Source of the DNA: Clostridiales bacterium
GTDB taxonomy: Bacteria > Bacillota > Clostridia > Lachnospirales > WQUN01
Direction: 5' to 3'
Assembly (NCBI GenBank): GCA_031282635.1
Contig: JAITDJ010000042.1
Location: forward strand, 1-33,290
Length of the DNA stretch: 33,290 nt
Every line of letters starts with the position of its first letter. Within the stretch, counting starts at the first letter, position 1. This document shows positions 946 to 33,103 of this stretch, in pieces. The notes below the pieces were generated by a model that had not been told where the DNA came from, did not search any database, and worked only from the letters and a program-made list of their open reading frames with translations. Both the position numbers and the translations under genes were made by a program.

Positions 946-3900
946 TCAGGTGACGTTTGCCGCCTCCGACGCTGTTTGATCGCCGCCCTTAACGAGCATG
1001 TTACGCCGCGCGGCGGCCAGCATCAATTTAATACGGTTTAATTGATTTACCTCGCTGGCGCCGGGATCGTAGTCTACCGCCACTATATTGGACAAAGGGT
1101 AGCGGCGGCGCAGTTCCTTTATTATACCCTTGCCGGTAACATGATTGGGCAGGCAGGCGAATGGCTGCAGGCATACGATATTATTGCAGCCGCTGTGTAT
1201 CAGTTCCGTCATTTCGGCTGTTAAAAACCATCCCTCGCCGGTCTGGTTGCCCAGCGACACAATCGACTTGGCCATATTCCCCAATTCGTCGATGCGCGCG
1301 GGCGGGTAAAAGCGATTGCTTTCCCGCAGCGCCTTGCGCGCGTGGCGCCTGTAGTACTCGATAACGGAAATAACGCTGTCGTTGATCCAGCGGCTGGCTG
1401 GCTTTTCGCCTAAATGGCGGACTTTATACCGTGTGTTATAGCAGCCGTAGAGAAAGAAGTCCAGCAGATCGGGCACCACCGCTTCCACGCCTTCTTTCTC
1501 TAATAAATCCACGATATTGTTATTGGCCGTCGGGTGAAATTTGACCAGAATCTCTCCCACAACGCCTACACGCGGTTTTTGCACGTTATTTATCGGCAGG
1601 TTGTCAAACTCGTGTACAATGCCGTATATGTTGGCCTTAAAACGCGCCTGGCTCCCCTCGCGCACAGATTTTTTACATATCCTGTTCCATTTTTCATACA
1701 AAGCGTCCGCAGAGCCCGGAATAAGTTCATACGGCCTGATCGCGTACAGGGTGCGCATGAACAGATCCCCGTAGATAAGGGCCTGCAGCGCCCTGTTTAT
1801 CAGCGGCATGGTGTATTTCATGCCGGGGTTTCTCTCCAGACCGCTCGCGTTGACAGATACCACCGGTACATGCTCCATGCCCGCTTTACGCAGGGCTTTG
1901 CGGATAAATCCTATATAGTTTGTAGCCCGGCAGCCGCCTCCGGTTTGGCTGATCAGCACGGAAACGCTGTTCAGATCATATTTGCCCGATTTAAGGGCGT
2001 TCAGCACCTGGCCCACTACTATAAGCGCGGGGTAGCAGGCGTCGTTGTTTACATATTTCAGGCCCGTTTCAACGCATTCCCTGTCAATGCCCGGCATAAC
2101 AGCCAGATTATATCCGCACGAGATAAACGCCTCCTTCAGCAGATCAAAATGAATGGGCGACATCTGGGGGCACAGCAGAGTGTGTTTCCTGCGCATATTT
2201 CTGGTGAACACACGCCGTTCCCAGCGGAGGTTGGGAAGCTCGGTTTTCCTGGGCCCGGTTTCGCGCTCCCGCAGAAAGGCGAACAGCGAGCGGATACGGA
2301 TGCGCGCGGCGCCAAGGTTGTTGACCTCGTCTATCTTAAGCAGCGTGTAGATCTTGCCCGCGCGGCTTAAAATTTCAGACACCTCGTCCGTTGTGACGGC
2401 GTCCAGCCCGCAGCCAAAGGAATTAAGCTGAACCAGTTCCAGATTATCCTGCCCGGCTACGAAACTCGCGGCCGCGTAAAGCCTTGAATGGTAGGCCCAT
2501 TGATCCCTTACGATCAGCGGCCTTTCCACATTGCCCAAATGCGCCACGCTATCTTCCGTTAAGACCGCCGTACCGTAACCGGTTATCATCTCGGGTATGC
2601 CGTGGTTGATCTCCGGATCCGAGTGATACGGCCTTCCCGCCAGCACGACGCCGCTCATGTTGTTTTGCCGCAGGTATTCGACGGTTTCTTCGCCCATCCG
2701 GCGCATATCCGCCCGGAAACGCTCCTGCTCCAGCCAGGCCGCGTCCAGCGCGGCTTTGATATCCGCGGCCGGGATGTCCGCAAATTCATGGATCAGGGCC
2801 TTCGCCAGCGCCTTTTTGTCGTTCAGGTTCACGAACGGGTTGCGGAAAACCACGCCGCGTTCCCTCAGATCCTCCACGTTGTTTTTGATATTCTCAGGGT
2901 ATGAGGTCACAATAGGGCAGTTATAGTAATTGTCTGCTCCGGAAATTTCTTTGCGCTCGTACGCGGCGCTGGGGTAGAAGATAAAATCCACGCCCGCGTT
3001 TATCAGCTCCATAATATGCCCGTGCGCCAGTTTCGCCGGGTAACAGGCGCTTTCGCTGGGGATGGACTCTATGCCCTTTTCGTACACCTGCCGTGACGAC
3101 GCCGGCGACAGTTTGACTCTGTAGCCCAGTTCGGTAAAGAACGTGAACCACAGGGGGTAATTCTCATATATGTTAAGCACCCGGGGGACGCCGACCACGC
3201 CGCGCCGGGCCTTCGCCGCGCTCAACGGCGCGTAATCGAACAGGCGCTTGAGTTTATAGTCGAAGAGATTGGGCGCATTATTGGCCTTACGTTCTTTACC
3301 TAAACCGCGTTCGCAGCGGTTGCCGCTGATAAAACGCCGCCCGTTTGAAAACTGGTTTATCGTGAGCAGGCAGTTGTTCGCGCAGCGCTTGCAGTGCGTC
3401 AGGCTGGATTTGATTTCCAGACTGTCTAATTCGGCGGGGTTCAGCAATTTGCTTTCATATCCTTCGTTAAAACGTTCCCGCGCTATGACGGCGGCGCCGA
3501 ATGCGCCCATTACGCCGGCGATATCGGGGCGTACGGCCTCTCGGCCGCTGATCAGCTCGAACGCGCGCAGAACCGCTTCATTATAAAATGTGCCGCCCTG
3601 AACTACAATGTTCTTTCCCAGTTCCGACGGATCGGTGACCTTTATGACCTTTTGCAGGGCGTTTTTGATAACGGAGTAGGCCAGCCCGGCGGAAATATCC
3701 GCCACCTCCGCGCCTTCCTTCTGCGCCTGCTTCACGCGCGAGTTCATGAACACCGTGCATCGCGAGCCCAGGTCCACAGGGTTGCGCGCGTACAGGGCGT
3801 TTTGCGCGAATTGCGTTACCGGCAGATCCAGGGATTTTGCGAAGGTCTCTATGAACGAACCGCATCCGGCCGAACAGGCCTCGTTCAGCAAAACGGAGTC

Positions 3901-5205
3901 AATCGCCCCGTTTTTCACGCTTAAAGCCTTCATATCCTGTCCGCCGATATCCAGTATGAAATCCACGTCGGGATCGAAAAACGCGGCCGCTTTATAATGC
4001 GCCACTGTTTCAATCTCGCCGTGATCGACCGCAAAGGCCGCCTGCGCCAGCCCCTCGCCATAGCCGGTTACGCAGGAATTAAGTATTTTTACGTTTGGCG
4101 GCGTCAGGCTGTATAATTCTTTGAGGGCCTGTTTGATCATCTTTAAGGGGCTGCCCTCGTTTCCGGCGTAGAACGAATAGAGCAGCTCGCCGTCCCCGCT
4201 TAACAGCGCCAGCTTGGTTGTGGTCGAACCGGCGTCTATACCCAGGAACGCCCCGCCTTCATATGTATTCAAATCGCGTGTCGCGGCCTTTCTCGCGCTG
4301 TGCCTCAGCGCGAATGTGTTATACTCCGCCTCGTCGCAAAAGAGAGGATCCAGCCGTTTTATCTCAAATTCCAATTGCTTGGGCGATTGCAGGTTGGCCA
4401 GCAGTTCGTCGACGGTAACGGGGTTTTCTTCCTTTACGGATAACGCGCCGCCCAGGGCCGCGAACAGATGCGAATTCTCAGGCACAATAATCTCGTCGCC
4501 GGAAAGCTTCAGCACCTCGCAAAAACGGCGCCGCAGCTCCGGAAGAAATGTCAGCGGACCGCCCAGGAACGCCACACGCCCGCGTATGGGCTTGCCGCAC
4601 GCCAGACCGCTGATCGTTTGATTCACAATGGCCTGGAAAATGGAAACCGCTAAATCGGGTTTCGCCGCTCCCTCGTTAATAAGCGGCTGAATGTCGCTTT
4701 TGGCGAAAACGCCGCAGCGCGCCGCAATGGGGTATATTGCCTTATAATCCTCGGCCAGCTTGTTCAGACCGGAGGCGTCGGTCTGAAGCAGTGAAGCCAT
4801 CTGATCAATGAACGAACCGGTGCCGCCCGCGCATATGCCGTTCATGCGCTGTTCCATACCGCCGGTGAAGTAGATGATCTTCGCGTCCTCGCCGCCGATT
4901 TCTATGGCCACGTCGGTTTGCGGCGCGTAAACCTCAATAGCCCTGGAAACGCCGATAACCTCCTGTATAAACTCCACGCCCACCCATTTGGCCAGCGATA
5001 AGCCGCCCGAGCCCGTTATCATCGCGAACAGCGGCACGTTGCCCAGCGCGTCCTTCAGGTCGCGGGCCATATCCGTAAGCGTTTCCTGTATATTGGAAAA
5101 ATGCCTGCGGTACCGCTGAAATTTGAGGCGTCCCAGTTCGTCCAGGGCCGCTAATTTTATAGTGGTGGAACCGATATCTATACCTAATCGGAATTTCAAA
5201 CGCAA
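946..5205 (-). CDS. Giant fused 2-hydroxyacyl-CoA dehydratase activase (double BadF/BcrA-type ATPase + DUF2229/HgdB-like)
   Basis: A 1419-residue protein of the ATP-dependent activator family that injects low-potential electrons into 2-hydroxyacyl-CoA dehydratase-type or double-cubane enzymes. Two ASKHA ATPase domains are visible. The first (residues 7-260) has [12 protein letters not shown]125 in CAGGTGSF and C164 in [10 protein letters not shown], the two cysteines that hold the intersubunit [4Fe-4S] cluster in HgdC-type activases. The second (321-590) has [12 protein letters not shown]444/C448 and C483. A Cys-rich linker (C605, C608, C612, C631) may bind another cluster. The DUF2229 part (about 650-1000) and an HgdB-like C-terminal part follow. 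The start is a TTG (5203-5205) behind AGGA; the family's N-terminal GIDIGSTT fits this start. No dehydratase alpha/beta genes are nearby, so the partner or substrate is unknown. The length is normal for the fused Clostridia form. Confidence 0.9.
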
Positions 5206-11435: not shown

Positions 11436-11696
11436 TTAGAAGCCGAACAGCCTGAAAATGGGGGTTCCAATGTCGCTGATTGTTTTTAAAATGCCATGCG
11501 CTTTTTGATTCACGATGGTGGACTTCTCCGTCTTTATAAGGCCTGTCACACTACTGAAGCCAATGCCCACAATACCCAGTATGGAATTAAAAATAGCGTC
11601 GCCGATAGTCGGAAGGCCAAAGAGACCCCCTTTGACTTTTACCGCCTCATCCGTACTCAGTTCCCTAAAGCCGGGATTCACCAATTCGTTTTTCAT
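11436..11696 (-). CDS. Double-glycine leader peptide, bacteriocin- or pheromone-like
   Basis: An 86-residue precursor. Residues 1-24 form a classical double-glycine leader: MKNEL, then FRELSTDEAVKVKGG, i.e. the L-S-x-x-E/D-x(6-8)-G-G pattern cut by C39-peptidase ABC exporters. The remaining 62 residues (starting LFGLPTIGDAIF) are Gly/Ile/Ser-rich and amphipathic, have no Cys, and end FRLFGF. This fits a class II bacteriocin or secreted signal peptide. I chose the ATG at 11694-11696 because GAGGAGGG lies 7 nt upstream and it gives a complete leader; a longer frame to 11753 lacks an SD and would run into the promoter. No C39 exporter, immunity gene or partner peptide is nearby. I do not recognise the core sequence. 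Confidence 0.75.
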   Translation of the reverse strand: MKNELVNPGFRELSTDEAVKVKGGLFGLPTIGDAIFNSILGIVGIGFSSVTGLIKTEKSTIVNQKAHGILKTISDIGTPIFRLFGF

Positions 11697-11733
11697 TATA
11701 AGACCCTCCTCAAGAAAATTTATTAACGTATAT

Positions 11734-11763
11734 ATTATACCTGACAATAGCATAAAATGTCAA
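11734..11763 (-). promoter_or_regulatory. Strong promoter of the double-glycine peptide gene
   Basis: On the minus strand TTGACA (11758-11763), 18 nt, TATAAT (11734-11739). Both hexamers are perfect. Transcription would start near 11727, leaving a leader of about 30 nt that contains the GAGGAGGG site. Confidence 0.8.
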
Positions 11764-19160: not shown

Positions 19161-20096
19161 ATGCCCAGAATAGCGCGGAAACTTACGGATTTAATCGGGC
19201 ATACGCCTCTGCTGCAGCTGGAAAATTTCAGCGAGGCGCGCGGCCTTGCCAGCCCGATTATAGCCAAACTGGAATATCTCAACCCCGGAGGCAGTGTAAA
19301 AGATCGCGTCGGTTACGCTATGATACGGGACGCGGAAGACAAAGAGATAATAGGCAAAGGATCGGTAATTATCGAACCCACCAGCGGTAACACCGGTATT
19401 GCGCTGGCTTACGTGGCCGCCGCGAAAAAATACCGCGTTATACTCGTTATGCCGGAAACCATGAGCCTGGAGCGTCAGAAGCTGCTGAAGGCTCTGGGCG
19501 CCGAACTGGTACTTACGGAGGGCGGCCAGGGTATGCGCGGGGCTATACGTAAAGCGGAGCAGCTGGCGGCGGAAATCCCAATGGCCTTTATACCGCGTCA
19601 GTTCGTCAACCCGGCGAATGTGCGCATTCACAGGGAGACCACCGCTATAGAAATCTGGAACGACACGGCGGGGACAGTGGACATCGTGGTGGCGGGCGTT
19701 GGTACGGGCGGTACTGTCAGCGGCGTGGGGCAGGTATTGAAATCCAGGAAGCCTGATGTGCGCATTGTAGCGGTGGAGCCTGCAGCGTCCCCCGTTCTGT
19801 CGGGGGGTAAGCCGGGAACTCATGAGATACAGGGAATCGGGGCAGGCTTCGAGCCGGATATATATGACAGGGACATTGTGGATGAAGTGTTTCGCGTGGA
19901 GGATCGCGAGGCTTTTAAGACCGCCAGGCAGCTTGCCCGCGCCGAAGGTCTGCTGGTCGGCGTCTCGTCGGGCGCCGCCGCGTTCGCGGCCGTGAATGTG
20001 GCCGGCCGCCCGGAAAACAGGGATAAAGTTGTTGTGGCGATTTTACCGGACACAGGCGAGCGTTATCTTTCCATCGGGCTGTATGACGATGCCTGA
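19161..20096 (+). CDS. cysK: Cysteine synthase (O-acetylserine sulfhydrylase), copy 1
   Basis: A 311-residue fold-type II PLP enzyme that makes cysteine from O-acetylserine and sulfide. PLP lysine K47 is in NPGGSVKDR, the substrate loop is TSGNTG (74-79), the phosphate-binding loop is [12 protein letters not shown] (179-190), and PDTGERYLS lies at the end. First gene of the operon, reached through the unusual leader. The SD is AAAGGA, 10 nt before the ATG, overlapping the minigene. A second, close copy lies at 26491. Position at the head of a reductase/transporter operon suggests it captures sulfide released by the pathway, or supplies sulfur for cluster assembly. Confidence 0.93.
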
Positions 20097-20105
20097 GGAG
20101 GAACT

Positions 20106-20954
20106 ATGGAAAACAAAATAGAACTGAAAGGACTCAGACAGTCCTTTAATGTCCGCAACAAAGAAAAACGCTGTACAGAGGAATTTGTCGCGCTTGAAGA
20201 TTTCAGCCTTTCTGTAGACGACGGGGAATTTATAACCATAGTGGGGCCTTCCGGCTGCGGAAAGAGTACGCTATTGGATATAATAGCGGGCTTAACCAAG
20301 CCCAAAAGCGGGGAAATCTTCATTGATGGGCGCAAGGTAAGCGGCCCGGCGCTGGACAGAGGCTTTATTATGCAGGGATACGCCCTGTTTCCATGGCGTA
20401 CGGTGGAACGAAATGTGGAATACGGCCTGGAAGTGAAACACGTGCCCAAAAGGGAACGGCGGGATATTTGCCGGTATTTTATCGAATTGGTCGGTCTGAC
20501 GGGATTTGAGGAACGGTATCCCAACGAGCTGTCCGGCGGCATGCGCCAGCGTGTGGCTATAGCCCGCAGCCTGGCCTATAATCCGCAGGTGCTGTTGATG
20601 GATGAGCCTTTTGCCGCTGTGGACGCTCAGACCAGAGAGATTTTACAGGATGAACTGCTCCGTATCTGGGAGGCCACGAAGAAGACGGTTATCTTTATTA
20701 CCCACAGTATTGAGGAAGCGGTGCTGCTGGCGGATCGCGTCGTAGTGATGACCGCCTCCCCCGGAACAGTCAAAAGAATTCTGGATATTGATCTGCCCCG
20801 TCCGCGTACCGCTTCGGATATGAGGATTTCGGCGGATTTCAATTGGATCAGCAATCGCATTTGGGAATTACTGCAAAGCGCCGCGGCCGTGAAAACATCG
20901 AAACCGTCCGGCCAGGATTTAGCCAGTGAAATATCTGTTTCGGCGCGGCTTTAG
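20106..20954 (+). CDS. ABC transporter ATPase, nitrate/sulfonate/taurine type (SsuB/TauB-like)
   Basis: A 282-residue ATP-binding subunit of a two-component-type importer at the inner membrane face. Walker A GPSGCGKST (47-55), Q-loop near MQGYALFPW (89-97), signature LSGGMRQR (142-149), Walker B VLLMDEP (162-168) and H-loop His200. The length and FPWRTVERNVEYGLE segment match the SsuB/TauB/NrtD branch. Its permease and binding protein lie 2.8 kb downstream (23783-25602), separated by a nitrogenase-like pair. The substrate is probably an organosulfur compound, inferred from context. A 6-bp GC hairpin (20944-20959) spans its stop codon. Confidence 0.9.
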   Translation: MENKIELKGLRQSFNVRNKEKRCTEEFVALEDFSLSVDDGEFITIVGPSGCGKSTLLDIIAGLTKPKSGEIFIDGRKVSGPALDRGFIMQGYALFPWRTVERNVEYGLEVKHVPKRERRDICRYFIELVGLTGFEERYPNELSGGMRQRVAIARSLAYNPQVLLMDEPFAAVDAQTREILQDELLRIWEATKKTVIFITHSIEEAVLLADRVVVMTASPGTVKRILDIDLPRPRTASDMRISADFNWISNRIWELLQSAAAVKTSKPSGQDLASEISVSARL

Positions 20955-21004: not shown

Positions 21005-22468
21005 ATGCCGTTTGATTTTACCAGCACTACATTCGGAATTCGCGAGGAACGCCTTGGCTCTCTGGTCGGATATGTGGGTTCCATTCGCGACCTGGCGGAG
21101 CAATCCTGCCGTGGATCGCTTAAAGACAGAGGGCGTTGTTTCTCTCAGTCCAGTTCATGTGACGCGGGCTGCGCTATGGGTTATATCACCCATATCCGTG
21201 ACGTGGCTATGATAAACCACGCGCCGTCCGGCTGCACCGCGCCGGCGTCCGCGATTGTGACTATGCAGACGCAACTGGCCGATAAGCGGAGTTTGCCCTA
21301 TAATACGGTAGTTTTGGGCACCGATCTGAACGAATCTGACACCATATTCGGCGCGGCCGCCGGGCTTAAGCAAACCATTCTGGAGACATGGGAACGTTAT
21401 AAGCCATCCGCTATATTCGTTACTACGTCATGTGTTTCAGGCATTATAGGCGAGGATGTGGACGCCGTAATCAGCGAGGCCGCTGAAATGCTGCCTGTTC
21501 CGGTTGTGCCGATTCACTGTGAGGGTTTTAAAAGCAAAGTATGGGCCACGGGCTTTGACGCCTGTGACCACGCGATTTTATCGGCAATAGTCAAACCGCC
21601 TCAGAAAAAAGGCAATTTTGTGAATTTTAAGAATTTTAACGAAAGCGCCCGCGCGGATATCGTTGAAATGTTCGAGAGCATCGGCGTCAAAACGTTTTTT
21701 CTTTATTCAAACACAACGATTGAGGAGATTTCCCACATATCAGAAGCGTTGGCTACCGTTTCCATATGCGGTACGCTTTGCTCATATCTGGGCAACGGGC
21801 TTCTGGAAAAGCATGGCGTGCCTTATATAAACACAATCAATCCGCTGGGCGTCGTCGGATTTGAGGCCTGGTTCCGTGAAGTGGGCCGCGTAATAGGCAA
21901 AGAAGCCGAGGCGGAAGCTTATATTGAACGTGAAAGAGCGATCTACATCCCAAAACTCGAGCAAGTCAGAGAAAAGCTGAAGGGCAGGCGGGTTGTGCTG
22001 GGTATGGGTTCCAGCTTTGCGTTCCAGATTGCGCGGGTAGTGCAGGAATTGGGTATGGAAGTGGCCTATGTGACCTCCTGGCACTACGATTCCCGCTACG
22101 ACGACGGCAATCCGCCGCCGCATGTTCAGCACTTGGCGGCTTCCTCACCTGTGGACTTTCCCGTCAACATTGCCGACCAGCAGAATTTTGAACTGATGAA
22201 CATTCTTAATACATATAAACCCGACTTATACCTCGGCCGCCATGGAGGAACATCCATATGGGCCATAAAACAGGGTGTTCCCGCAATCTTTATGGCGGAT
22301 GAGTATATGGCGTTCGGATACAAACGGACACTCAGTTTTGCCTATACCATACTGGATCGTATTACCAACCGCAGTTTTGAAAAGAACCTGACGGCGCGTA
22401 TAAAGCTGCCATACACCGGCTGGTGGTACGCGCAGGACAGCGGCGGCATGTATGAGGAGGCGCGTTAG
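21005..22468 (+). CDS. Nitrogenase-like component 1, NifD-type subunit (pair 1)
   Basis: A 487-residue member of the nitrogenase component-1 superfamily. P-cluster-type cysteines are C52, C77 and C143; the C77-C143 spacing (66) equals that of Azotobacter NifD Cys88-Cys154, and C143 sits in TSCVSGIIGEDVDAV. C255 in VSICGT lies 16 residues before the GVP motif, exactly where NifD Cys275 (the cofactor ligand) precedes GIP. The equivalent of His442 is missing (FMADEYM here versus RQMHSWDY). In the IHCEGF segment Trp180 replaces Gln191 and Phe184 replaces His195. Hence it very likely holds a NifB-derived cluster but is not a N2 reductase. The SD is AGGGAGGT. It is 2 nt upstream of its NifK-like partner. 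Closest known idea: methylthio-alkane reductase (MarD)-like. Confidence 0.88.
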   Translation: MPFDFTSTTFGIREERLGSLVGYVGSIRDLAEQSCRGSLKDRGRCFSQSSSCDAGCAMGYITHIRDVAMINHAPSGCTAPASAIVTMQTQLADKRSLPYNTVVLGTDLNESDTIFGAAAGLKQTILETWERYKPSAIFVTTSCVSGIIGEDVDAVISEAAEMLPVPVVPIHCEGFKSKVWATGFDACDHAILSAIVKPPQKKGNFVNFKNFNESARADIVEMFESIGVKTFFLYSNTTIEEISHISEALATVSICGTLCSYLGNGLLEKHGVPYINTINPLGVVGFEAWFREVGRVIGKEAEAEAYIERERAIYIPKLEQVREKLKGRRVVLGMGSSFAFQIARVVQELGMEVAYVTSWHYDSRYDDGNPPPHVQHLAASSPVDFPVNIADQQNFELMNILNTYKPDLYLGRHGGTSIWAIKQGVPAIFMADEYMAFGYKRTLSFAYTILDRITNRSFEKNLTARIKLPYTGWWYAQDSGGMYEEAR

Positions 22469-22470
22469 GC

Positions 22471-23772
22471 ATGGCAAAGACGTTGGATCAGGTTCGTTAT
22501 AAATGCGCGTTGGGCGGCATTCAAACGGTGCAGTCCATAGAAGGCGCCCTGCCCATACTTCACGCCGGGCCGGGCTGTTCGGATAAACTTTCCACAGGAT
22601 ATGGCACATCAGGGCATTTTGCCCCGCGCATTTTTCCCTGCTCAAATCTCAGTGAAAAAGAGGTTGTGTTTGGCGGAGAGGAGCGTTTAAAGGAATTAAT
22701 AGAAAATTCTCTGCGCATCATAGACGCGGATCTCTATGTAGTGCTGACCGGATGTTCGTCGGAGATCGTCGGCGACGACGCCGGGGAAGTAACAAGCCGG
22801 TTCCGCGCGTCAGGCAAGCCTGTAATCCAGGCCTCGGGCGCGGGTTTCAAGGGCAGTAATTACATGGGGTATGAGTGGGTATTGGAATCGATTATAAATC
22901 AATATCTTGATGAAATCGAGCCGGCGCCGGAAAAGGGTCTGGTCAATGTGTTCGCGAGCCTGCCTCAGCACGATCCGTACTGGCATGGCAATTATGACGC
23001 GCTGGAAACCCTGCTGGCAAAAATCGGCTTGAAGGCGAACATTATATTCGGATACGGACGCGGTGTGAAAAATGTTAACCGGATTCCTCATGCGGAATTC
23101 AATTTGGTCGTCAGCCCCTGGCTGGGGATGGAAACCGCGAAACTGCTGGAAGAGAGATTCGAAACCCCATACCTGCATTATCCCAACCTTCCCATAGGCG
23201 CGTACGAAACCAGCGCGTTCCTGCGTGAAGTCGGCAATTTTGCGGAACTTGATACGGACAAAATAAACGCCGTAATTGAGGAAAATGAGCGCCGGTATTA
23301 CTACTTCATTGAGCGTTTCGCGGACTTGTTCCTGGAGAACCGCATCATGTCCAAGCGGTTCACGGTGGCTTCCGAAACGCAGTACACTTTGGGAATCACA
23401 AAATTTTTGGTTAACGATTTGGGTCTGTTTCCCCAAAAGCAGTTTGCCATGGAAAACGTGCCGGGAAAATACCGATCCGATGTTAAAAGTCAATTTAAGG
23501 AATTACGCTTCGGCATAGAAGCGGATATCTCCTTTGAAACCGACGGCTATCTTGTGCACGAGGCGATCAGGCGAAGCGATTACTTGGGATATCCGCTAAT
23601 TATCGGCAGCGCCTGGGAGAAAAAAATCGCGAAAGAGACCTCCGCTCATTTTCTGCCCATATCCTGGCCGCTGAACGAGAGGCTGATAATAAACAGCAGC
23701 TATGTGGGCTACGAGGGCGGACTGAAATTGTTGGAGGACATATATTCGGTGGTTCTTACAAGATTTAATTAA
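22471..23772 (+). CDS. Nitrogenase-like component 1, NifK-type subunit (pair 1)
   Basis: A 433-residue beta-type subunit, expected to pair with the product of 21005-22468 in an alpha2beta2 complex. P-cluster-type cysteines C12 (YKCALGG), C36 (HAGPGCS) and C95 (LTGCSSEIVGDD) are spaced like NifK Cys70/95/153. It lacks the N-terminal extension of true NifK. EKEVVFGGEERLKELI and the closing YVGYEGGLKLLEDIY segment are shared with the second NifK-like protein (28342). The presence of all three cysteines argues against a NifN-like scaffold, which loses most of them. Confidence 0.87.
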   Translation: MAKTLDQVRYKCALGGIQTVQSIEGALPILHAGPGCSDKLSTGYGTSGHFAPRIFPCSNLSEKEVVFGGEERLKELIENSLRIIDADLYVVLTGCSSEIVGDDAGEVTSRFRASGKPVIQASGAGFKGSNYMGYEWVLESIINQYLDEIEPAPEKGLVNVFASLPQHDPYWHGNYDALETLLAKIGLKANIIFGYGRGVKNVNRIPHAEFNLVVSPWLGMETAKLLEERFETPYLHYPNLPIGAYETSAFLREVGNFAELDTDKINAVIEENERRYYYFIERFADLFLENRIMSKRFTVASETQYTLGITKFLVNDLGLFPQKQFAMENVPGKYRSDVKSQFKELRFGIEADISFETDGYLVHEAIRRSDYLGYPLIIGSAWEKKIAKETSAHFLPISWPLNERLIINSSYVGYEGGLKLLEDIYSVVLTRFN

Positions 23773-23782
23773 GGGGGTTATT

Positions 23783-24820
23783 ATGAAATTACGGTTCTTA
23801 AGCGCGCTCGGCATTTTAGCTGTAATGGTTTCCGCCTGCGGCGCGGCGGCCGTCAGCTCGTCCGAGGCCGCCGGTTCTGCGGAAGAAGAGCTATTCACTC
23901 TGCGGATTGTCACGCAAACCGGGTTCAATGAACTTAACGTGGCGGACGCGCTCGGGTTCTTCCGCGACGAGGGCATTCAAATAGAATACACGGGCGTCTT
24001 ATCTAAAGGGGTTACGGAGTATCAGTTGATTGAACAGGGCGAGATTGACGCTTTTACCACCGGTCACCCTCCGAATGTGGCGCAGGCGCGTCTTGCCGGC
24101 ATTAAAGTCAAAGTCGTTTCTCCGGGTATGGTAGACAACCCGGATCCGAATTTTGCCCATGTCCGCTATCTTGTGAAACCGGGCAGCCCGATTCAGACGC
24201 TGGATGAAGCGGTCGGCAAAAAGGTGACGGTAAGCAGTATATCCGGCTGTACGACGGGATATGTGCAGTATTATCTGAAGAGCAAAGGACTGGATCCCGA
24301 CAGCGTCGAGTTTGTGGTTATCCCCGATTCGGAAGCGCTGCTTTCCTTAAGTGAGGGTTTGATAGACATTACAGTCACCCATCCGCCGTTTGCCGGCAAA
24401 GCGATAGCCGAAGGCGCGGCCAGGGAGATACTGAACAGCTGGGAAATATTTCACAGCCCGGGCGCAGGGCTTTCGGTACGCGGATTTTCCGAGGCGTTCA
24501 TAGCCGAACATCCCGATGTGGCGCAGGGTTTTGTCAACGCTTTATATCGCTCTCACATTTGGATCAACAGCCATTTTGACGACGCGAAAAAAATTGTGGC
24601 GTATTATCTTGATCTGGAACCATCTGATCTGAGTTCGTTTTATTATTGCGACGACAAAGAAGTCAGAGAGGACTATATACGCGAGTGGTTTGATATATGT
24701 GAGGAAATCGGTTTATGGGAAAAAGGCGCCATCGCGCCCGCTGAAATTATTGACAATCAATTTACGCCAAAAGACGCGCCCGCCGGAGACGCCGATTTGA
24801 GATGGGAACCGGGGGTATGA
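23783..24820 (+). CDS. ABC transporter substrate-binding lipoprotein (SsuA/TauA/NMT1-like)
   Basis: A 345-residue extracytoplasmic lipoprotein. Lipobox VSAC with Cys19, followed by an Ala/Ser-rich tether. The mature part has the family's LRIVTQTGFNELNVADALGFFRDEGI opening, a GEIDAFTTGHPP ligand loop and GKKVTVSSISGCTTGY, where sulfonate- and taurine-binding proteins contact the ligand. It presumably binds the operon's substrate outside the cell. The ligand cannot be read from sequence; an organosulfur compound is the contextual guess. The stop overlaps the permease ATG by 4 nt. Confidence 0.88.
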   Translation: MKLRFLSALGILAVMVSACGAAAVSSSEAAGSAEEELFTLRIVTQTGFNELNVADALGFFRDEGIQIEYTGVLSKGVTEYQLIEQGEIDAFTTGHPPNVAQARLAGIKVKVVSPGMVDNPDPNFAHVRYLVKPGSPIQTLDEAVGKKVTVSSISGCTTGYVQYYLKSKGLDPDSVEFVVIPDSEALLSLSEGLIDITVTHPPFAGKAIAEGAAREILNSWEIFHSPGAGLSVRGFSEAFIAEHPDVAQGFVNALYRSHIWINSHFDDAKKIVAYYLDLEPSDLSSFYYCDDKEVREDYIREWFDICEEIGLWEKGAIAPAEIIDNQFTPKDAPAGDADLRWEPGV

Positions 24821-25602
24821 CCGCCGTTTTAAAAATAAAAAAATTTGTTAGGACGTTAACGCGTTTTTCATCCATACTGCTATTTGTTCTGCTATGGGAA
24901 CTCTTTGCCAGGATGAAGCTCTTTGTAAACCCGACGTTCCTGCCGCCGTTTTCAAATGTGCTGGCCGCGCTGCTGAAAGTGGCGCGGGACGGCACTTTGT
25001 GGAAGCACGCTGCAATCAGCTTACAGAGATCCCTGTTTGGCTTCGCGATTGGCATGGCTTTTTCCGTCCCATTCGGGCTGTGTGTAGGTTGGTTTAAGAG
25101 ATTCGGCGGGTTTCTTAATCCACTGCTTCAGACGTTCCGCAATATGCCTACGCTGGCTCTGCTGCCGGTGTTTGTGATGTTTTTCGGGATCGGGGAATTT
25201 TCCAAAATTATGGTTATCTTTTGGGGCGTGCTATGGAGCGTTCTGCTGAATACGATCGCGGGGGTGCAGAGCGTTGACCCGCAGATGATTAAAGCTTCCC
25301 GTTCTATGGGAACCGGCTCTGTGAAAATGTTTGCCAGTGTTATACTGCCGGCTTCGCTGCCGTTTATCTTTACGGGCATGCGTATTTCCGCCACAACATC
25401 CATTCTGATATTGATTGCGGCGGAAATGATTGGGGCGAGCAAAGGGTTGGGCTACGCGCTGTATTTTTATCAATCGAATATGAAAATACCCGAAATGTAC
25501 GCTTATATAATCGTAATGGCCATAATTGGAGTCGCGCTGAATTTTTCGTTGGAAGCGGTGGAACGCCGCAGTTTTCGGTGGCGCGGCGGGTCCGCGGAAT
25601 AA
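24817..25602 (+). CDS. ABC transporter permease (SsuC/TauC-like)
   Basis: A 261-residue inner-membrane subunit with about six hydrophobic helices (for example LLFVLLWELFA and FGFAIGMAFSVPFGLCVGW) and the EAA coupling loop around VDPQMIKASRSMG, which docks on the ATPase. I chose the ATG at 24817 because it overlaps the upstream stop (ATGA); an in-frame ATG at 24802 would add five residues. With the genes at 20106 and 23783 it completes one importer. Confidence 0.9.
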   Translation: MTAVLKIKKFVRTLTRFSSILLFVLLWELFARMKLFVNPTFLPPFSNVLAALLKVARDGTLWKHAAISLQRSLFGFAIGMAFSVPFGLCVGWFKRFGGFLNPLLQTFRNMPTLALLPVFVMFFGIGEFSKIMVIFWGVLWSVLLNTIAGVQSVDPQMIKASRSMGTGSVKMFASVILPASLPFIFTGMRISATTSILILIAAEMIGASKGLGYALYFYQSNMKIPEMYAYIIVMAIIGVALNFSLEAVERRSFRWRGGSAE

Positions 25603-25626: not shown

Positions 25627-26481
<855 letters not shown>

Positions 26482-26490
26482 GGGGGAGTT

Positions 26491-27432
26491 ATGGAACATA
26501 TCGCGGGGAAACTTACGGAATTAATCGGCAATACGCCTATGCTGGAACTCTCGGGTTACGGAGCGGAGTTTGGGTTAAAAGCGCGGTTGATCGCGAAATT
26601 GGAGTATTTCAACCCCCTGGGAAGCGTGAAGGATCGTATAGCGCTGGCTATGATAGAGGCGGGGGAACAAGCCGGAAAAATAAAGCCGGATACCGTGCTT
26701 ATTGAGCCCACCAGCGGCAATACGGGCGTCGGGCTGGCGTTTGTGGCCGCTTCGAAAGGTTATCGCGTAATATTAACAATGCCTGAAACCATGAGCGTGG
26801 AGCGGCGTAAGCTGCTGGCGGCGCTGGGGGCGGAACTGGTATTGACGCCCGGCGCTCTTGGAATGAAAGGTGCGGTGCGTAAAGCTGAAGAACTGGCGTC
26901 ACAGATACCCAACGCGTTTATACCGCAGCAGTTCGAAAATCCGGCTAACCCGGACATACATAAAAAGACCACCGCGGAAGAAATTTGGAGGGATACAGAC
27001 GGCCGAGTGGATGTTTTCGTCAGCGGCGTGGGCACCGGCGGCACGATTACAGGCGTGGGACGCAGACTTAAAGAATTGAACCCGACGGTCAGAATCGTCG
27101 CGGTAGAGCCCTACGATTCGCCCGTTTTGTCGGGAGGCGCGCCGGGTCCGCATAAGATTCAGGGCATCGGAGCGGGTTTTATACCAGCCGTACTGGATCA
27201 GGGCGTTATTGACGAAATTTTCAAAACGCGCGAGGAAGAGGCGTATCTGGCTTCACAGCTGCTGGCGCAAAAGGAAGGGCTGCTGGCGGGCATATCTTCG
27301 GGAGCGGCGGCTTTCGCGGCCGCACAGATCGCCCGCCGGCCGGAGTATAAAGATGGTAACGTCGTCGCGCTGCTGCCGGATACGGGGGAACGCTACCTGT
27401 CTACGGCACTGTACGACGAGATTCCGAGGTGA
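26491..27432 (+). CDS. cysK: Cysteine synthase, copy 2
   Basis: A 313-residue paralogue of the enzyme at 19161 with the same layout: K47 in [15 protein letters not shown] at 74-79, [12 protein letters not shown] and PDTGERYLS. It makes cysteine from O-acetylserine and sulfide. It opens the second module of the operon and is followed at once by the NifB-like gene. Two cysK genes in one transcript is unusual; they may differ in sulfur donor or in protein partner. Confidence 0.93.
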
Positions 27433-27437
27433 GTCGA

Positions 27438-28325
27438 ATGCCATGCTCATTTGTCAATCTAGACGGCAAATTTTCACATTTAGCAAAGAATCATCCCTGC
27501 CTGGGGCGCGCGCCGAACAAGGGCAGGCTGCATCTGCCGGTTAGCCCGGCTTGCAACATTAAATGCCGATTCTGCACCAGAGCTTTCAACGACAATGAAA
27601 ACCGTCCGGGGGTAGCGAAACAGCTTTTGAGCGCAGAGGAGGCGGCCGGCGTGATCGATCGCGCGGTCAGCCTGTGCCCGGAGATCTCCGTTGTGGGCGT
27701 CGCGGGTCCGGGCGACAGCCTCGCTACCGGCCACGCGTTGAGATGTCTCAAGGCTATGCGTGAAACGCATCCGGGTCTGCTGGGCTGCTTAAGCACTAAC
27801 GGACTTATGCTGCCTGAACGCGCCGAAGAAATCGTCAACGCCGGCGTGGAAACCGTAACCGTGACAGTGAACGCGGTTGATCCGGAAATTTTGGCGCTGA
27901 TCGTGGAAAGAATCGTGATAAATGGCATAGTTCTTACCGGGATAAAGGCCGCCAAAATTTTAATCGCGAATCAAATGGCGGGGATAGGTATGCTGGCCGA
28001 ACGCGGCGTACTGGTGAAAATCAATACAGTGCTTATACCGTGCGTCAACGGCGGGCATATCGGGGAAATCGCTGCTGCCGCCGCGGATAGAGGAGCGTCA
28101 ATTATAAATATTATCCCGCTGATTCCCCAGGGTGATTTTTCCGATATGGCGCCCCCCGACTGTGAGGAAATCAACGAAGCGCGGGAAGACGCCGAAGAGC
28201 GCCTGCCTGTATTCCGGCACTGCCAGCACTGTCGGGCGGACGCCTGCGGTCTTCTGGGGCGCGATCTGTCGCGCGAGCTTTACGGCGGCGCTTTAAGCGC
28301 GGAGAATACATTCTCACACGGCTGA
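27438..28325 (+). CDS. nifB: NifB-like radical-SAM cluster-biosynthesis protein (stand-alone core)
   Basis: A 295-residue radical-SAM enzyme of the NifB family, which fuses [4Fe-4S] units into the carbide-containing precursor cluster (NifB-co). Motif C39-x3-C43-x2-C46 in LPVSPACNIKCRFC; other NifB marks are NHPC near the start, NENRPGV, VAGPGDSLA, LSTNGLMLP, VNAVDP, VLIPCVN and the C-terminal CQHCRADACGLLG. It has no fused NifX domain; a separate NifX-like gene lies downstream (31205). I chose ATG 27438 with GAGGTGA as SD; GTG 27429 overlapping the cysK stop is the alternative. It indicates that the component-1 proteins carry a complex cluster rather than only [4Fe-4S]. Confidence 0.9.
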   Translation: MPCSFVNLDGKFSHLAKNHPCLGRAPNKGRLHLPVSPACNIKCRFCTRAFNDNENRPGVAKQLLSAEEAAGVIDRAVSLCPEISVVGVAGPGDSLATGHALRCLKAMRETHPGLLGCLSTNGLMLPERAEEIVNAGVETVTVTVNAVDPEILALIVERIVINGIVLTGIKAAKILIANQMAGIGMLAERGVLVKINTVLIPCVNGGHIGEIAAAAADRGASIINIIPLIPQGDFSDMAPPDCEEINEAREDAEERLPVFRHCQHCRADACGLLGRDLSRELYGGALSAENTFSHG

Positions 28326-28341
28326 GAACAGGAGAGCGAAA

Positions 28342-29682
28342 ATGAGCGAAATTATAGATCGGCCCCGTTACGCCTGCGCGTTGGGCGGGGCGTTGTTTAC
28401 CCTGCGGGCTTTGCCTCGTACCGCGCCCATTATACATGCGAGCGCCGGATGCGGTTACAGTCTGTACGGCGCTTTAAGCGCGGGCGCGGGTTACTTGGGC
28501 GGAGGTTACTGCGGCGGGGCGGCCTGGAGCAGTACCAATGTTGTGGAAAGGGAGATTGTGTTCGGCGGAGAAGAAAGGCTGGAGGAGCAAATCCGCGCTA
28601 CAATTGAACTAATGGACGCAGACCTGTATGTCGTGGTTACCGGATGCATGGTCGAGATGATCGGCGACGACGCGGCTGCGGCCGCCGCCGTGTTTAGAGA
28701 CGCCGAAGCGCCGGTTCTCGCAATCCCGACCCCAAGTTTTAAGGGCGACTCTTACGCGGGGTATGATATGGCGTTGAGCGGACTGTTCCGGGGGTTTACT
28801 CGCCTTGGGGCTGAAAAAAGAAAGGATACGGTGAACCTGCTGGGTCTTGTGCCTGGGCAGGACGCTTTTTATAAAGGGAATCTGACTGAACTGAAACGCC
28901 TTCTGGAACAGCTGGGCTTGCGGGTGAACACATTCTTTGGCGAAGGAGAAACCCTTGATAATCTCAGGAACGCTTCGGAAGCTTCTCTGAACCTGGTACT
29001 CTCCGACCGGTATGGTATAAAAGCCGCGCAGGTATTTGAGGAGATCCACGGCGTCCCTTACCGCGTGCTGCCGTTCCCGATTGGGGCGGCGCAAACCGCT
29101 GATTTTCTGCGGGCCGCGGCGGAAGCTGCAGGCGTTGGAACGGCTGCCGCTTCCGCCCTGATATACCGTGAAGAGGATCGATATTATGATTATCTTGAGC
29201 GGATAGCGGATATATACAACGATATTGATTTACAGCGGTATGCCATAGTTGCGGGCGACGTCAACTACGCCCCCTCTGTGTCGCGTTTTATTTCGGATGA
29301 ATTGGGCTGGATTCCAAAATTGACCGTTATAACGGATCAATTGAACGCTGAAGAAACCGCAAAAGTGCAAAGCCGTTTTTCAGGCTGGGAAAGCGGCGTT
29401 TACCCGCTGATAAAATTCGATCCGGATACTTCCGCGGTTCAGAGGTATTTTCCCTTAGCCTGGCCGCAAAGCGCCAACGAGCGTTATTACGACAGCTTTT
29501 CCCCGGCCGTTGTCATCGGGAGCGCCCTTGAGCGGGATTTCGCGCTCCAATACAGCCTGCCGCTTTTGACGGTTTCTTTTCCGGTGACGAACAGAATTGT
29601 TCTGAACCAGTCTTACGCCGGGTATAACGGCGGCTTGAGCCTGGCGTCTGATTTAATAACACTGCTGATGTCGTGGCGATAG
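28342..29682 (+). CDS. Nitrogenase-like component 1, NifK-type subunit (pair 2)
   Basis: A 446-residue beta-type subunit related to the one at 22471. P-cluster-type cysteines C12 (YACALGG), C37 (HASAGCG) and C102 (VVTGCMVEMIGDD). The stretch TNVVEREIVFGGEERLEEQI and the terminal SYAGYNGGLSLASDLI are conserved with pair 1. A Gly/Tyr/Cys-rich loop (about 45-60, with C57) is its main difference. Here the NifK-like gene precedes the NifD-like gene, the reverse of pair 1. Confidence 0.87.
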   Translation: MSEIIDRPRYACALGGALFTLRALPRTAPIIHASAGCGYSLYGALSAGAGYLGGGYCGGAAWSSTNVVEREIVFGGEERLEEQIRATIELMDADLYVVVTGCMVEMIGDDAAAAAAVFRDAEAPVLAIPTPSFKGDSYAGYDMALSGLFRGFTRLGAEKRKDTVNLLGLVPGQDAFYKGNLTELKRLLEQLGLRVNTFFGEGETLDNLRNASEASLNLVLSDRYGIKAAQVFEEIHGVPYRVLPFPIGAAQTADFLRAAAEAAGVGTAAASALIYREEDRYYDYLERIADIYNDIDLQRYAIVAGDVNYAPSVSRFISDELGWIPKLTVITDQLNAEETAKVQSRFSGWESGVYPLIKFDPDTSAVQRYFPLAWPQSANERYYDSFSPAVVIGSALERDFALQYSLPLLTVSFPVTNRIVLNQSYAGYNGGLSLASDLITLLMSWR

Positions 29683-29693
29683 GAGAATAAAGG

Positions 29694-31202
29694 ATGAATT
29701 ATTTAAACGAAAAAACCCCGCCTGTAAGGGAGGATCGCCTTGGCGCGGGCATAGCTTTCGGAGGGCTTTGCCGGGAACTCTGCTCGGTTCAGCGCGAGGG
29801 CTGCCTTAATAAAGCAAGCCGTTCGTTTTCTCAAAGCCAGGGCTGTCAGTTTACCCTAAGCCTTGCCATGACCAATTCCCTCCGTAACGCTGTAATAATT
29901 ATGCACGGCCCTATCGGATGCGGCGCCTCATGCATCGGGTCGGCGGGCGGTTCCGGGACGTTTAAGCGTCTGCGCGATCCGAAAGCCGAGGGTCTGGTTT
30001 GGATTAACACAAATCTGGACGAGGCGGACGTCATAAACGGCGGAGAAAACAAACTGCGCGAATCAATACTCCGAGCGGACAGAGAATTCCGACCGGAGAT
30101 TATTGTTGTGACCGTAAGCTGCGTTCCGTCGCTGATCGGCGACGACGTGGACGCCGTTATAGCAGAATTGCAGGAGGAAACGGCGGCCTCAATTTTTCCG
30201 GTACACTGCCCTGGCTTTAAAACCAAAGTAATGGCCACCGCCTATGACGACGTATACCACGGTATTCTGCGAAGCTTGGTGCGACGCCCCGTCCGCCGTG
30301 AGGACAGCCGCGTCGTTCATGACGATCTGTATGAAACGCAGCGGCGCTATCGGGAAAGCCGTACGGTGAACGTGCTTAACGTAGGCATGATGTCGCGTCA
30401 GGATGAGTTGGAACTGGAGCGTCTCATTGAGGCGTTGGGCCTGAAAGCGCGCTTTCTGCCATGTTACTCCGATGACGACGACTTTCGCGAGGCTTTGGAA
30501 TCATCTTTGAATGTCAGCATATGCGGCACGCATGACGATTATTTCCTGGAGCATCTGAAAGAGCTGTACAATATTCCATATATTATAGATACAATGCCGG
30601 TCGGCCGGAAGAATACGGGGCGATGGCTGACGCTTATAGCTTCGCGTTTCGGTTTGGAAGCGGAAGCGAAGCGGCTTATCGACGCCGAGTCGGATATGCT
30701 GGATAAGGCGTTGGAACCTCTCCGCGCCGAACTAAAAGGCAAAAAAGCCTTTTTGACCGGCGGAGCTATCCGCGTGCTGGCCACAGCGGAGATTGCACAG
30801 GATTTGGGCATGGAAATTGTAGGGCTGAAAGGCCATCACTACGACGGGTTTGCCAACGTACTTTTTGAAAATCTGGAAAACGTGGACGACGTTGTTATTA
30901 ATATCGCTACCCAGCAGCCCTTTGAGCATATCAACCTGGCGAAACGGCTTAAGCCGGATATTTTCATATCACACACCGGAGGCAATAACCTGACGGCGAA
31001 ACTGGGGATTCCGATTCTGCCGATTTTCAGTCAAAGCTATAATTATATGGGCTATTCCGGCGTTTACGAGATTGCCCGCAGGATGCGCCGCTTGCTCTTC
31101 AACAGCCGGTTCAACCTGAATATAGCTCGGCACAGGCGTCTGCCATACAGGGAAAGCTGGTACGAAAAAGATCCATTCGCTTACATTAAGAGGGAGGGTT
31201 AA
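29694..31202 (+). CDS. Nitrogenase-like component 1, NifD-type subunit (pair 2)
   Basis: A 502-residue alpha-type subunit. P-cluster-type cysteines C51, C76 (MHGPIGCG) and C143 (VSCVPSLIGDDVDAV), with the same 67/66-residue spacing class as NifD. Cofactor-type C277 in VSICGT lies 16 residues before NIP. The His442 position reads PIFSQSY, so the histidine is absent; Met180 and Tyr184 replace Gln191 and His195 in the VHCPGF segment; a glycine occupies the place of the homocitrate-contacting Lys426. It differs from pair 1 in much of the sequence, so it is probably a second enzyme with another substrate rather than a recent duplicate. Confidence 0.88.
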   Translation: MNYLNEKTPPVREDRLGAGIAFGGLCRELCSVQREGCLNKASRSFSQSQGCQFTLSLAMTNSLRNAVIIMHGPIGCGASCIGSAGGSGTFKRLRDPKAEGLVWINTNLDEADVINGGENKLRESILRADREFRPEIIVVTVSCVPSLIGDDVDAVIAELQEETAASIFPVHCPGFKTKVMATAYDDVYHGILRSLVRRPVRREDSRVVHDDLYETQRRYRESRTVNVLNVGMMSRQDELELERLIEALGLKARFLPCYSDDDDFREALESSLNVSICGTHDDYFLEHLKELYNIPYIIDTMPVGRKNTGRWLTLIASRFGLEAEAKRLIDAESDMLDKALEPLRAELKGKKAFLTGGAIRVLATAEIAQDLGMEIVGLKGHHYDGFANVLFENLENVDDVVINIATQQPFEHINLAKRLKPDIFISHTGGNNLTAKLGIPILPIFSQSYNYMGYSGVYEIARRMRRLLFNSRFNLNIARHRRLPYRESWYEKDPFAYIKREG

Positions 31203-31204
31203 GA

Positions 31205-31558
31205 ATGGGTATGCGCGTCGCCGTCGCCACTACGGACGGTAAAGTGATCAACGAGCATTTCGGCCGGGCTTCGGCCTTTTACATAATGGAAGCGGACGCT
31301 TCCGGTCACAGTTTTGTAGAGAAGCGTGAAACCGCGCCCGTCTGCGGAGACGGAGGGCATGAGGATACGGATATGGACGCTCTGATCGATTTGCTGAGCG
31401 ACTGCGAAGCGGTATTGGCAAGCCGCGTCGGCCCCGGCGCGGAACGGGCGCTGGCGAGGCGGGGCATTACGGCCTATGAGATACCGCTGCCGGTTTCCGA
31501 GGCGATGGATCGGCTGGGCAGGTTCTATGCGAAACGGAAGCCGCCGGTAAGATCGTGA
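31205..31558 (+). CDS. NifX/NafY-like iron-cofactor carrier (dinitrogenase iron-molybdenum cofactor domain)
   Basis: A 117-residue protein of the small NifX/NifB-C-terminal domain family that binds NifB-co or related clusters during transfer. Typical marks are [23 protein letters not shown] at the start and [20 protein letters not shown], followed by a short C-terminal helix. It is 2 nt after the NifD-like gene and 10 nt before the second NifH-like gene. Together with the NifB-like gene it forms a minimal cofactor pathway. No NifEN scaffold is present here. Confidence 0.87.
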
Positions 31559-31568
31559 GGGAACGTAT

Positions 31569-32441
31569 ATGGGCAAACCACTAAAACAAATAGCGATTTA
31601 CGGAAAGGGCGGCATCGGAAAATCCACCACTACCTCCAACTTGTCCGCCGCTCTCTCCTTAATGGGATTTAAGGTCATGCAATTCGGCTGCGATCCTAAG
31701 TCGGACAGTACGAATACCCTGCGTGACGGCTCGTATATACCGACCGTTCTGGATACTTTGCGCGAAAAATCAGGCCTGGACGCGCACGACGTTATTCACC
31801 GCGGCTTTAATGGGGTATACTGTGTGGAAGCGGGCGGACCCGCGCCGGGAGTTGGATGCGCCGGCCGCGGCATAATCACCGCCGTAGAACTTTTCAGACA
31901 CCAGCGTATATTTGAGGAATTGGATTTGGATTACGTAATATACGACGTGCTGGGAGATGTAGTGTGCGGCGGGTTCGCAGTGCCTATTCGGGAAGGCATA
32001 GCTAAACACGTGTTCACGGTTTCTTCCGCCGATTTTATGTCCGTTTACGCGGCAAACAACCTGTTCCGAGGCATTCTGAAGTATAGCAGATCCGGCGGCG
32101 CGCTGTTAGGAGGGGTTATCGCCAATTCTGTCAGCGGGGGATACTCAAAAGAGATTATTTCCGATTTTACCAACCGTACTAAAACCAGGATTGTGGAGTA
32201 CGCGCCCCGTTCAATTACCGTGACTCAATGCGAACTTAGAGGTAAAACGGTAGTAGAGGGCGCGCCGGAATCTGAACAGGCCCAAATCTATATGTCGCTG
32301 GCGGAGAAAATCGCGGCGCATGAAGTGTCTGAAATACCCGCTCCGCTGGGAGTGACGGAACTGCGGGAATGGGCTTCGGGTTGGTCCGAGAAGCTCCTGC
32401 AGCGGGTTGAAGGCAATGTTTCGCCGGGCGAGGCTATTTAA
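31569..32441 (+). CDS. Nitrogenase iron-protein-like reductase (NifH-like), copy 2
   Basis: A 290-residue NifH-family ATPase and the last gene of the operon. P-loop [10 protein letters not shown]97 (GVGCAGRG), Arg100, and C133 ([10 protein letters not shown]). It differs from copy 1 in the switch I segment (DPKSDS) and has an extended C-terminal tail rich in Trp/Glu. It probably serves the pair at 28342-31202. The operon ends with a terminator at 32531-32572. Confidence 0.9.
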
Positions 32442-32648: not shown

Positions 32649-32671
32649 CTACGCAAGGGGGTTGTTTGTTA

Positions 32672-33103
32672 ATGAATATACTTATTATCGACGGTATGGG
32701 CGGCGGTATAGGAAAAGCTGTTGTGGATCGTATTCGCTCCGCTTCGTCTGACTATCACATTTTGGCTATTGGAACCAACGCGATAGCTGCCTCGGCAATG
32801 CGTAAGGCCGGAGCGGATCAAGTGGCTACCGGCGAAAACGCTATCGTATACAATTCCAGCCATGTGGACTGTATTATCGGCAGTATCGGAATTATTCTCG
32901 CAAACGCGATGTTGGGCGAGATCAGTCCTCGCATGGCTGAAGCGGTGATTCTCAGTAACGCGGCAAAAATATTAATTCCTACCTCAAAATGCAATGTAAC
33001 TGTCTTGGGTGTTAGAGAACAGCCGATTGCTCAATATATAGATGAGATACCCGCTATTCTGCAAAAGTTAGATAAGCGTGATATTTTCCAAATTACATCT
33101 TGA
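32672..33103 (+). CDS. DUF3842 family protein
   Basis: A 143-residue protein of unknown function found mainly in Clostridia. It opens with a Rossmann-like glycine loop, ILIIDGMGGGIGKAVV, followed by AIGTNAIAASAMRKAGAD and a central SSHVDCIIGSIGIILANAMLGEISP block, which are the family's recognisable parts. I chose the ATG at 32672 because it matches the family N-terminus; a TTG at 32666 is nearer to the AAGGGGG SD. It has its own promoter and is probably not part of the nitrogenase-like operon. Confidence 0.8.
   Translation: MNILIIDGMGGGIGKAVVDRIRSASSDYHILAIGTNAIAASAMRKAGADQVATGENAIVYNSSHVDCIIGSIGIILANAMLGEISPRMAEAVILSNAAKILIPTSKCNVTVLGVREQPIAQYIDEIPAILQKLDKRDIFQITS

Follow-up and report, generated by a model that had tools for sequence, protein, structure and literature searches.

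A group IV nitrogenase-like sulfur operon from a Clostridiales bacterium with a candidate cofactor supply free of NifEN, molybdenum and homocitrate

We describe a gene cluster from a Clostridiales bacterium that is very probably a group IV nitrogenase-like operon for sulfur acquisition that brings its own minimal cofactor supply, one that would do without NifEN, molybdenum and homocitrate. Since no genes were found for adding molybdenum and homocitrate, the three nitrogenase-like, sulfur-linked enzymes of the organism most likely take up the iron-only cluster directly. This explanation is built on gene content, ligand conservation and genome-wide absences, and from these we infer the identity of the cluster and the substrates. 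It should nevertheless be read with some caution, as four observations point against it: the absence of the gating Cys62 from NifB, the lack of Arg428 and Trp195 in D2, the 92% completeness of the draft genome, and a homocitrate-synthase-family protein on contig C253.

The source assembly comprises 2.72 Mb in 263 contigs and is 92.07% complete. The window, i.e. the whole stretch of DNA analysed (33,290 nucleotides), is contig C65. The operon lies on the forward strand as a tight run with intergenic gaps of -19 to 50 bases. It is headed by a second CysK-like PLP enzyme (19161-20096), followed by an ABC transporter ATPase of the Ssu/Tau/Sao type (SsuB, 20106-20954), the MarD-like subunit D1 (21005-22468), the MarK-like subunit K1 (22471-23772), an SsuA-type substrate-binding protein (23783-24820), an SsuC/TauC-type permease (24802-25602), the NifH-like reductase H1, which scores above the TIGR01287 cut-off (25627-26481), and a cysteine synthase, CysK (26491-27432). 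The start of nifB (27429-28325) and the stop of cysK share 4 bases (GTGA), a translational overlap, and the NifK-like subunit K2 (28342-29682), the NifD-like subunit D2 (29694-31202), NifX (31205-31558) and a further NifH-like reductase, H2 (31569-32441), complete the run. The K2/D2 pair is flanked by the NifB and NifX genes, and it was this NifB-to-NifX part of the operon that an earlier first-pass annotation had singled out. A third pair, K3/D3, is encoded on contig C1, with the beginning of a MetN-like ATPase (named by eye) after it, and an O-acetylhomoserine sulfhydrylase is encoded in the same genome (638 bits, profile search). Elsewhere in the window we observed a DUF3842 protein 224 bases downstream of the operon (32666-33103, forward strand, 164 bits), a small ORF resembling a class II bacteriocin or peptide precursor, with a leader that ends in Gly-Gly (ELSTDEAVKVKGG; 11436-11753, reverse strand), and a 1419-aa protein that by eye is like 2-hydroxyacyl-CoA dehydratase activase fusions (946-5205, reverse strand).

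The gene annotated as nifB is genuine, with a GTG start at 27429; position 27438, where the first-pass annotation began, is an in-frame ATG. Its product is a single-domain NifB/MarB-type radical-SAM cofactor synthase of 298 aa that matches TIGR01290 (E=2.1e-77) and the NifB structures 7JMB/7BI7 (E=1.4e-79), and the five best PDB matches of its predicted fold are all NifB structures (mean pLDDT 77.5; loop residues 54-64 uncertain). The TIGR01290 score of 261 bits is below the curated cut-off of 343.65; the model has 441 positions including a NifX domain, and the match ends at position 295. The protein has no C-terminal NifX domain, this domain being a separate gene at 31205, and the model matches the two genes in turn. 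All six motifs of the published NifB fingerprint (HPC, Cx3Cx2C, ExRP, AGPG, TxTxN, Cx2CRxDAxG; PMC5715403) were found. With the HPC Cys, His42/43, Cys128/129 and the C-terminal CxxC as reference for K1 and K2, the ligands of the K1, K2 and SAM clusters are Cys24, His35, Cys42/46/49, Cys120 and Cys265/268, and they are kept in 80/80 NifB relatives.

The stand-alone NifX reported in the first-pass annotation likewise held up (117 aa, PF02579 at 77 bits), and a genome-wide profile search returned it as the only PF02579 gene. It scores under the TIGR02663 cut-off (47 vs 112 bits). Its His18 aligns to the histidine through which A. vinelandii NifX binds NifB-co, His35 (PMC13128457), and the HFG motif with the ligand histidine is kept in 61 of 62 strong matches of the NifX family, consistent with a role as NifB-co carrier. 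There is one NifB and one NifX in the genome for all three DK pairs, so that a single NifB would serve all of them.

The first-pass annotation had described the operon as lacking nifEN, homocitrate synthase and molybdenum-handling genes, and profile searches extend this picture to the whole of the 92.07% complete draft assembly. A genome-wide PF00148 search returned six genes, i.e. three pairs only, none of which fits NifE/NifN; the best alpha subunit reached 169 bits against the NifE equivalog TIGR01283 (cut-off 505.1), while genuine NifEs of the class score 590-641 bits. Neither ModA nor MoeA was found in genome-wide profile searches. The TIGR02660 cut-off alone is a poor test for NifV, as the split NifV genes of clostridial nif genomes also miss it, and the three genome-wide hits (185, 150 and 95 bits vs a cut-off of 462.9) were therefore identified one by one. 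None is a clear NifV. The 185-bit hit is a citramalate synthase (718 bits to TIGR00977) and the 95-bit hit a 4-hydroxy-2-oxovalerate aldolase (495 bits), and the remaining match, at 150 bits, is a 458-aa homocitrate-synthase-family protein of uncertain identity on contig C253 (4998-6101), for which a PDB search gave just general isopropylmalate/homocitrate synthase kin. Matches of similar length recur in many genomes of the class, and our guess is that the protein is possibly a Re-citrate synthase. The features of a molybdenum nitrogenase NifDK that we looked for, namely a score above the NifD cut-off, NifEN, a clear homocitrate synthase and molybdenum import, were not found in this genome.

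The residues of the three DK pairs support, at the level of sequence, direct insertion of an all-iron [Fe8S9C] cluster as proposed in the first-pass annotation, in that the P-cluster cysteines, the cluster cysteine and the Loop-I histidine are kept. MarD (9FMG/9D9U) is the top PDB match of every alpha, ahead of NifE or NifD (D1 315, D2 215, D3 412 bits). MarDK holds an [Fe8S9C] cluster without Mo, V or homocitrate, and we checked the alphas against its structure (PMC12552129). D1 and D3 carry the three P-cluster cysteines, Cys270, Trp195, Phe199, His375, Arg428 and His429 (MarD numbering), a set also present in the 36 relatives of D1 and the 11 of D3 (in one D1 row a P-cluster column is unaligned), with Arg428/His429 kept in 36/36 and 11/11. 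Three P-cluster-type cysteines are present in every beta subunit, K1 (12, 36 and 95), K2 (12, 37 and 102) and K3, and K2 finds its best PDB match in MarK (9d9u_C, 256 bits). Pairs 1 and 3 consequently show the hallmarks of MAR, i.e. Cys270, Arg428-His429 in Loop I, Trp195 and six P-cluster cysteines, and the comparison with methylthio-alkane reductases (MAR) made in the first-pass annotation is sound for them.

Judged by these hallmark residues, K2/D2, the pair beside nifB and nifX, is not a true MAR; it falls in a clade of its own, and its active site is altered. D2 keeps three P-cluster cysteines (Cys51, Cys76, Cys143), the cluster cysteine Cys277, His375 and a Loop-I histidine (His427), but Arg428 is replaced by Ser, Trp195 by Met and Phe199 by Tyr, so that the residues holding [Fe8S9C] in MarD are present in a modified form, and the hallmark of Arg428 with His429 and Trp195 is missing. 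Its Loop I reads KPD-IFIS-H-TGG, with the histidine conserved across the D2 clade; the loop is one residue shorter, and the alignment of the histidine is therefore uncertain by one position. A quick alpha tree with SH-aLRT support only joined D1 and D3 with RrMarD (99) and set D2 apart in a clade of its own (95). The predicted model of D2 (pLDDT 72) was nearest to MarD 9FMG (TM 0.79-0.84), ahead of NifE. These data suggest that a cysteine and a histidine would hold the cluster in all three pairs, and that the substrate of D2 probably differs from that of MAR. We found no report of the active-site changes of the D2 clade in the searchable literature, which is not proof that there is none.

Other nitrogenase-like alphas were observed as well. 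Eleven alphas of a clade from Lacrimispora and kin (among them L026:10160-11701, L031:10256-11725, and loci L033, L039, L044, L074, L075, L088 and L093) keep the P-cluster and cluster cysteines and have a shortened Loop I without histidine (KPDVFIGVPEWAAKLG); they are possibly scaffolds, or hold their cluster differently. A second nitrogenase-like alpha on a Chlorohelix plasmid (Ch_a1, L096:20110-21630), which adjoins its own NifB-like gene, lacks both Arg428 and His429; its residues at the key sites of MarD are CMRCCINFCEKR.

According to our main explanation, NifX would carry the NifB product on a histidine, and the cluster would be placed directly into K2/D2, K1/D1 and K3/D3 without NifEN, molybdenum or homocitrate. 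In the NifDK-like pairs the alpha-subunit cysteine and the Loop-I histidine would hold it, the NifH-type reductases would drive reductive cleavage of imported organosulfur compounds, and the freed sulfur could feed cysteine synthase and O-acetylhomoserine sulfhydrylase.

The first-pass annotation had also stated that all standard NifB motifs are present. This is correct for the six-motif fingerprint, but the fingerprint excludes the gating Cys62 (MtNifB) or Cys63 (MaNifB), a residue that has been called strictly conserved and that blocks futile SAM cleavage (PMC9692996), and this cysteine was not found in the NifB studied here. Early mutagenesis had placed it as a K1 ligand (PMC6053413, PMC7145814); in crystal structures it caps the radical-SAM cluster on a flexible loop, beside the K1 ligand Glu65 (PMC9692996). 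Here the loop, between the SAM-cluster motif and E-x-R-P-G, reads TRAFNDN-ENRPG (TRAFNDN being residues 50-56, 27576-27596, forward strand), and the K1-ligand glutamate next to the gating position is retained (E57 of E57-N-R-P-G). The loop cysteine is missing in 78 of 80 NifB relatives from named genomes and present in 19/19 nif-type NifBs from 291 sampled genomes of this class. In a maximum-likelihood tree the plug-less NifBs, that of the window included, formed one clade of 89 rows (bootstrap/aLRT 100/98). The gating cysteine is absent from 86 of these, the loop acid (E65) is retained in nearly all clade relatives, and the three exceptions (L067, L079, L116) have a loop cysteine, shifted in position in L079 and L116. 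The tree and the counts together suggest an old, lineage-wide loss. Two Chlorohelix NifBs carry the gating cysteine, one of them adjoining a MarD-type alpha, and all conserved NifB motifs are said to be present in R. rubrum MarB (PMC12552129).

The arrangement recurs within the class. In the sample of 291 genomes, NifE, taken as a TIGR01283 score above cut-off, was present in 18, and a NifB-like protein above 250 bits without NifE was present in 10, our own genome included. All ten of the latter have an alpha in the MarD range (TIGR01283 147-187 bits). ModA scored above cut-off in 12/12 NifE genomes tested vs 1/10 NifB genomes without NifE (Fisher p=2e-5, relatedness uncorrected), and by coordinates most tested NifE genomes have split NifV genes near the nif cluster, and none were seen in the NifE-less genomes. 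The absence of NifEN thus goes with the absence of molybdate import. The sole NifE-less genome with ModA (G210; contigs C6 and C33) encodes a full-length NifB-NifX fusion with the gating cysteine and two MarD-range alphas, has no NifE above cut-off, and is a different NifEN-less case. Of 80 related loci, several of which are cut by contig ends, 69 hold a D-type alpha, 68 NifH, 67 NifX, 61 CysK and 47 Ssu-like transporter genes, and B, X, D and H are grouped in most of them. In annotated records the same set of genes is accompanied by cysteine synthase and O-acetylhomoserine sulfhydrylase (Treponema saccharophilum) or by an O-acetylhomoserine/cysteine synthase gene (Chlorohelix). The association of such nitrogenase-like genes with sulfur genes was noted in 2012 (PMC3464626), and the locus neighbourhoods fit MAR-type sulfur salvage.

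Several other explanations deserve consideration. K2/D2 could be a private NifEN-like scaffold that takes the L-cluster from NifB/NifX and passes it to D1K1 and D3K3, since the pair has nifB on one side and nifX on the other, a position often taken by nifEN genes, and lacks the MAR hallmarks Arg428 and Trp195; Dos Santos et al. proposed such roles for some nitrogenase-like pairs (PMC3464626). We regard this as unlikely, given that K2 retains three P-cluster-type cysteines and D2 the cysteine and Loop-I histidine of a buried cluster, and that the predicted fold of D2 is nearest to MarD rather than NifE. Moreover, in D1-type genomes, for example Lacrimispora (L025), the locus encodes B, X and H1 alongside D1K1 and contains no K2/D2-type pair, and the K2/D2 clade also occurs in loci without D1 or D3 (L018, L049). 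Another concern is that NifBs without the gating cysteine might make a product different from the L-cluster, or have another role, as a strictly conserved residue that blocks futile SAM cleavage (PMC9692996) has been lost from most of one clade; the conservation of the other SAM-, K1- and K2-cluster ligands and of E65, together with partner alphas that keep the L-cluster ligands, makes this decidedly unlikely.

Nitrogen fixation by an enzyme of the Endomicrobium proavitum (Nfa) kind is very unlikely: although diazotrophy with NifB, NifH and NifDK-like genes and no NifEN is reported for both E. proavitum and Heliophilum fasciatum (PMC8399215, PMC9147875), D1 and D3 group with MarD (in a tree without NfaD), N2 is not reduced by MAR (PMC12552129), sulfur genes make up the operon, and the genome has no detected molybdenum importer (ModA) or MoeA. 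Finally, NifEN, NifV and the molybdenum genes could reside in the unassembled 8% of this 263-contig draft, and because nif genes tend to lie together, a single gap might conceal them. We consider this highly improbable, as ModA and MoeA are normally not all together with nifEN and yet both are missing, and as NifE is also missing from nine further NifB genomes of the class, of which eight have no ModA above cut-off and several are 99-100% complete. A more far-reaching version of our main explanation is put forward tentatively, and with less than even confidence: K2/D2, with its own NifB, NifX, NifH and CysK, could be a self-sufficient all-iron L-cluster reductase in a clade separate from MAR, acting on a substrate new for nitrogenase relatives and matured by an L-cluster synthase without the cysteine against futile cleavage.

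The NifEN-less layout itself is already published and not new (Heliophilum, PMC9147875; Endomicrobium, PMC8399215; MAR, PMC12552129). The closest known system is the MAR of Rhodospirillum rubrum, MarBHDK (PMC12552129; PDB 9FMG, 9D9U), a published [Fe8S9C] enzyme free of molybdenum and homocitrate. It shares with our operon a NifB-type maturase with H, D and K, the lack of molybdenum and homocitrate (here deduced from gene absences), the Cys270/His429 cluster site and the sulfur context, but differs in that here there are three D/K pairs, two H proteins and a stand-alone NifX, a D2 without Arg428/Trp195 and a NifB without the gating cysteine. The nfl loci of Heliophilum fasciatum similarly combine single nifB-, nifH- and nifX-like genes with several NflDK pairs, MarDK included, and no NifEN (PMC9147875); Heliophilum, however, has ModA, Moa/Moe and a NifV homologue, whereas no ModA, MoeA or clear NifV was found in our genome. 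The group IV-A NfaDK of E. proavitum, which we liken by description, is also a group IV system without NifEN (PMC8399215, PMC9147875), but is reported to fix N2, while the operon here is tied to sulfur genes. The NifEN-less Mo-nitrogenase of Roseiflexus shares maturation with NifB, NifH and DK only, but its FeMo-co is built on a genuine NifDK and draws on molybdate and homocitrate (PMC11573651). Isethionate reductase IsrBHDK is likewise nitrogenase-like, with an SsuABC transporter, a role in sulfur assimilation and a radical-SAM partner; IsrB, however, is nearest to BciD, not NifB, and IsrD keeps one of three P-cluster cysteines as opposed to three of three in D1-D3 (PMC11423573). Assignment to IsrDK was rejected on the grounds of these cysteines and of the NifB-type B protein.

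We found no report of the plug-less NifB clade in the searchable literature, which does not prove that none exists. Natural variation of this kind offers a way to test whether Cys62 acts as the proposed gate, and because NifB has been reported to be extremely unstable and difficult to express (PMC5715403), a plug-less NifB may suit engineering. In conclusion, the operon offers a natural test bed for the L-cluster without the molybdenum/homocitrate branch, in that one NifB and one NifX would supply three distinct DK pairs and the organism appears to show no sign of molybdenum use, and the D2 clade is a pointer to additional L-cluster chemistry among anaerobes of the gut.
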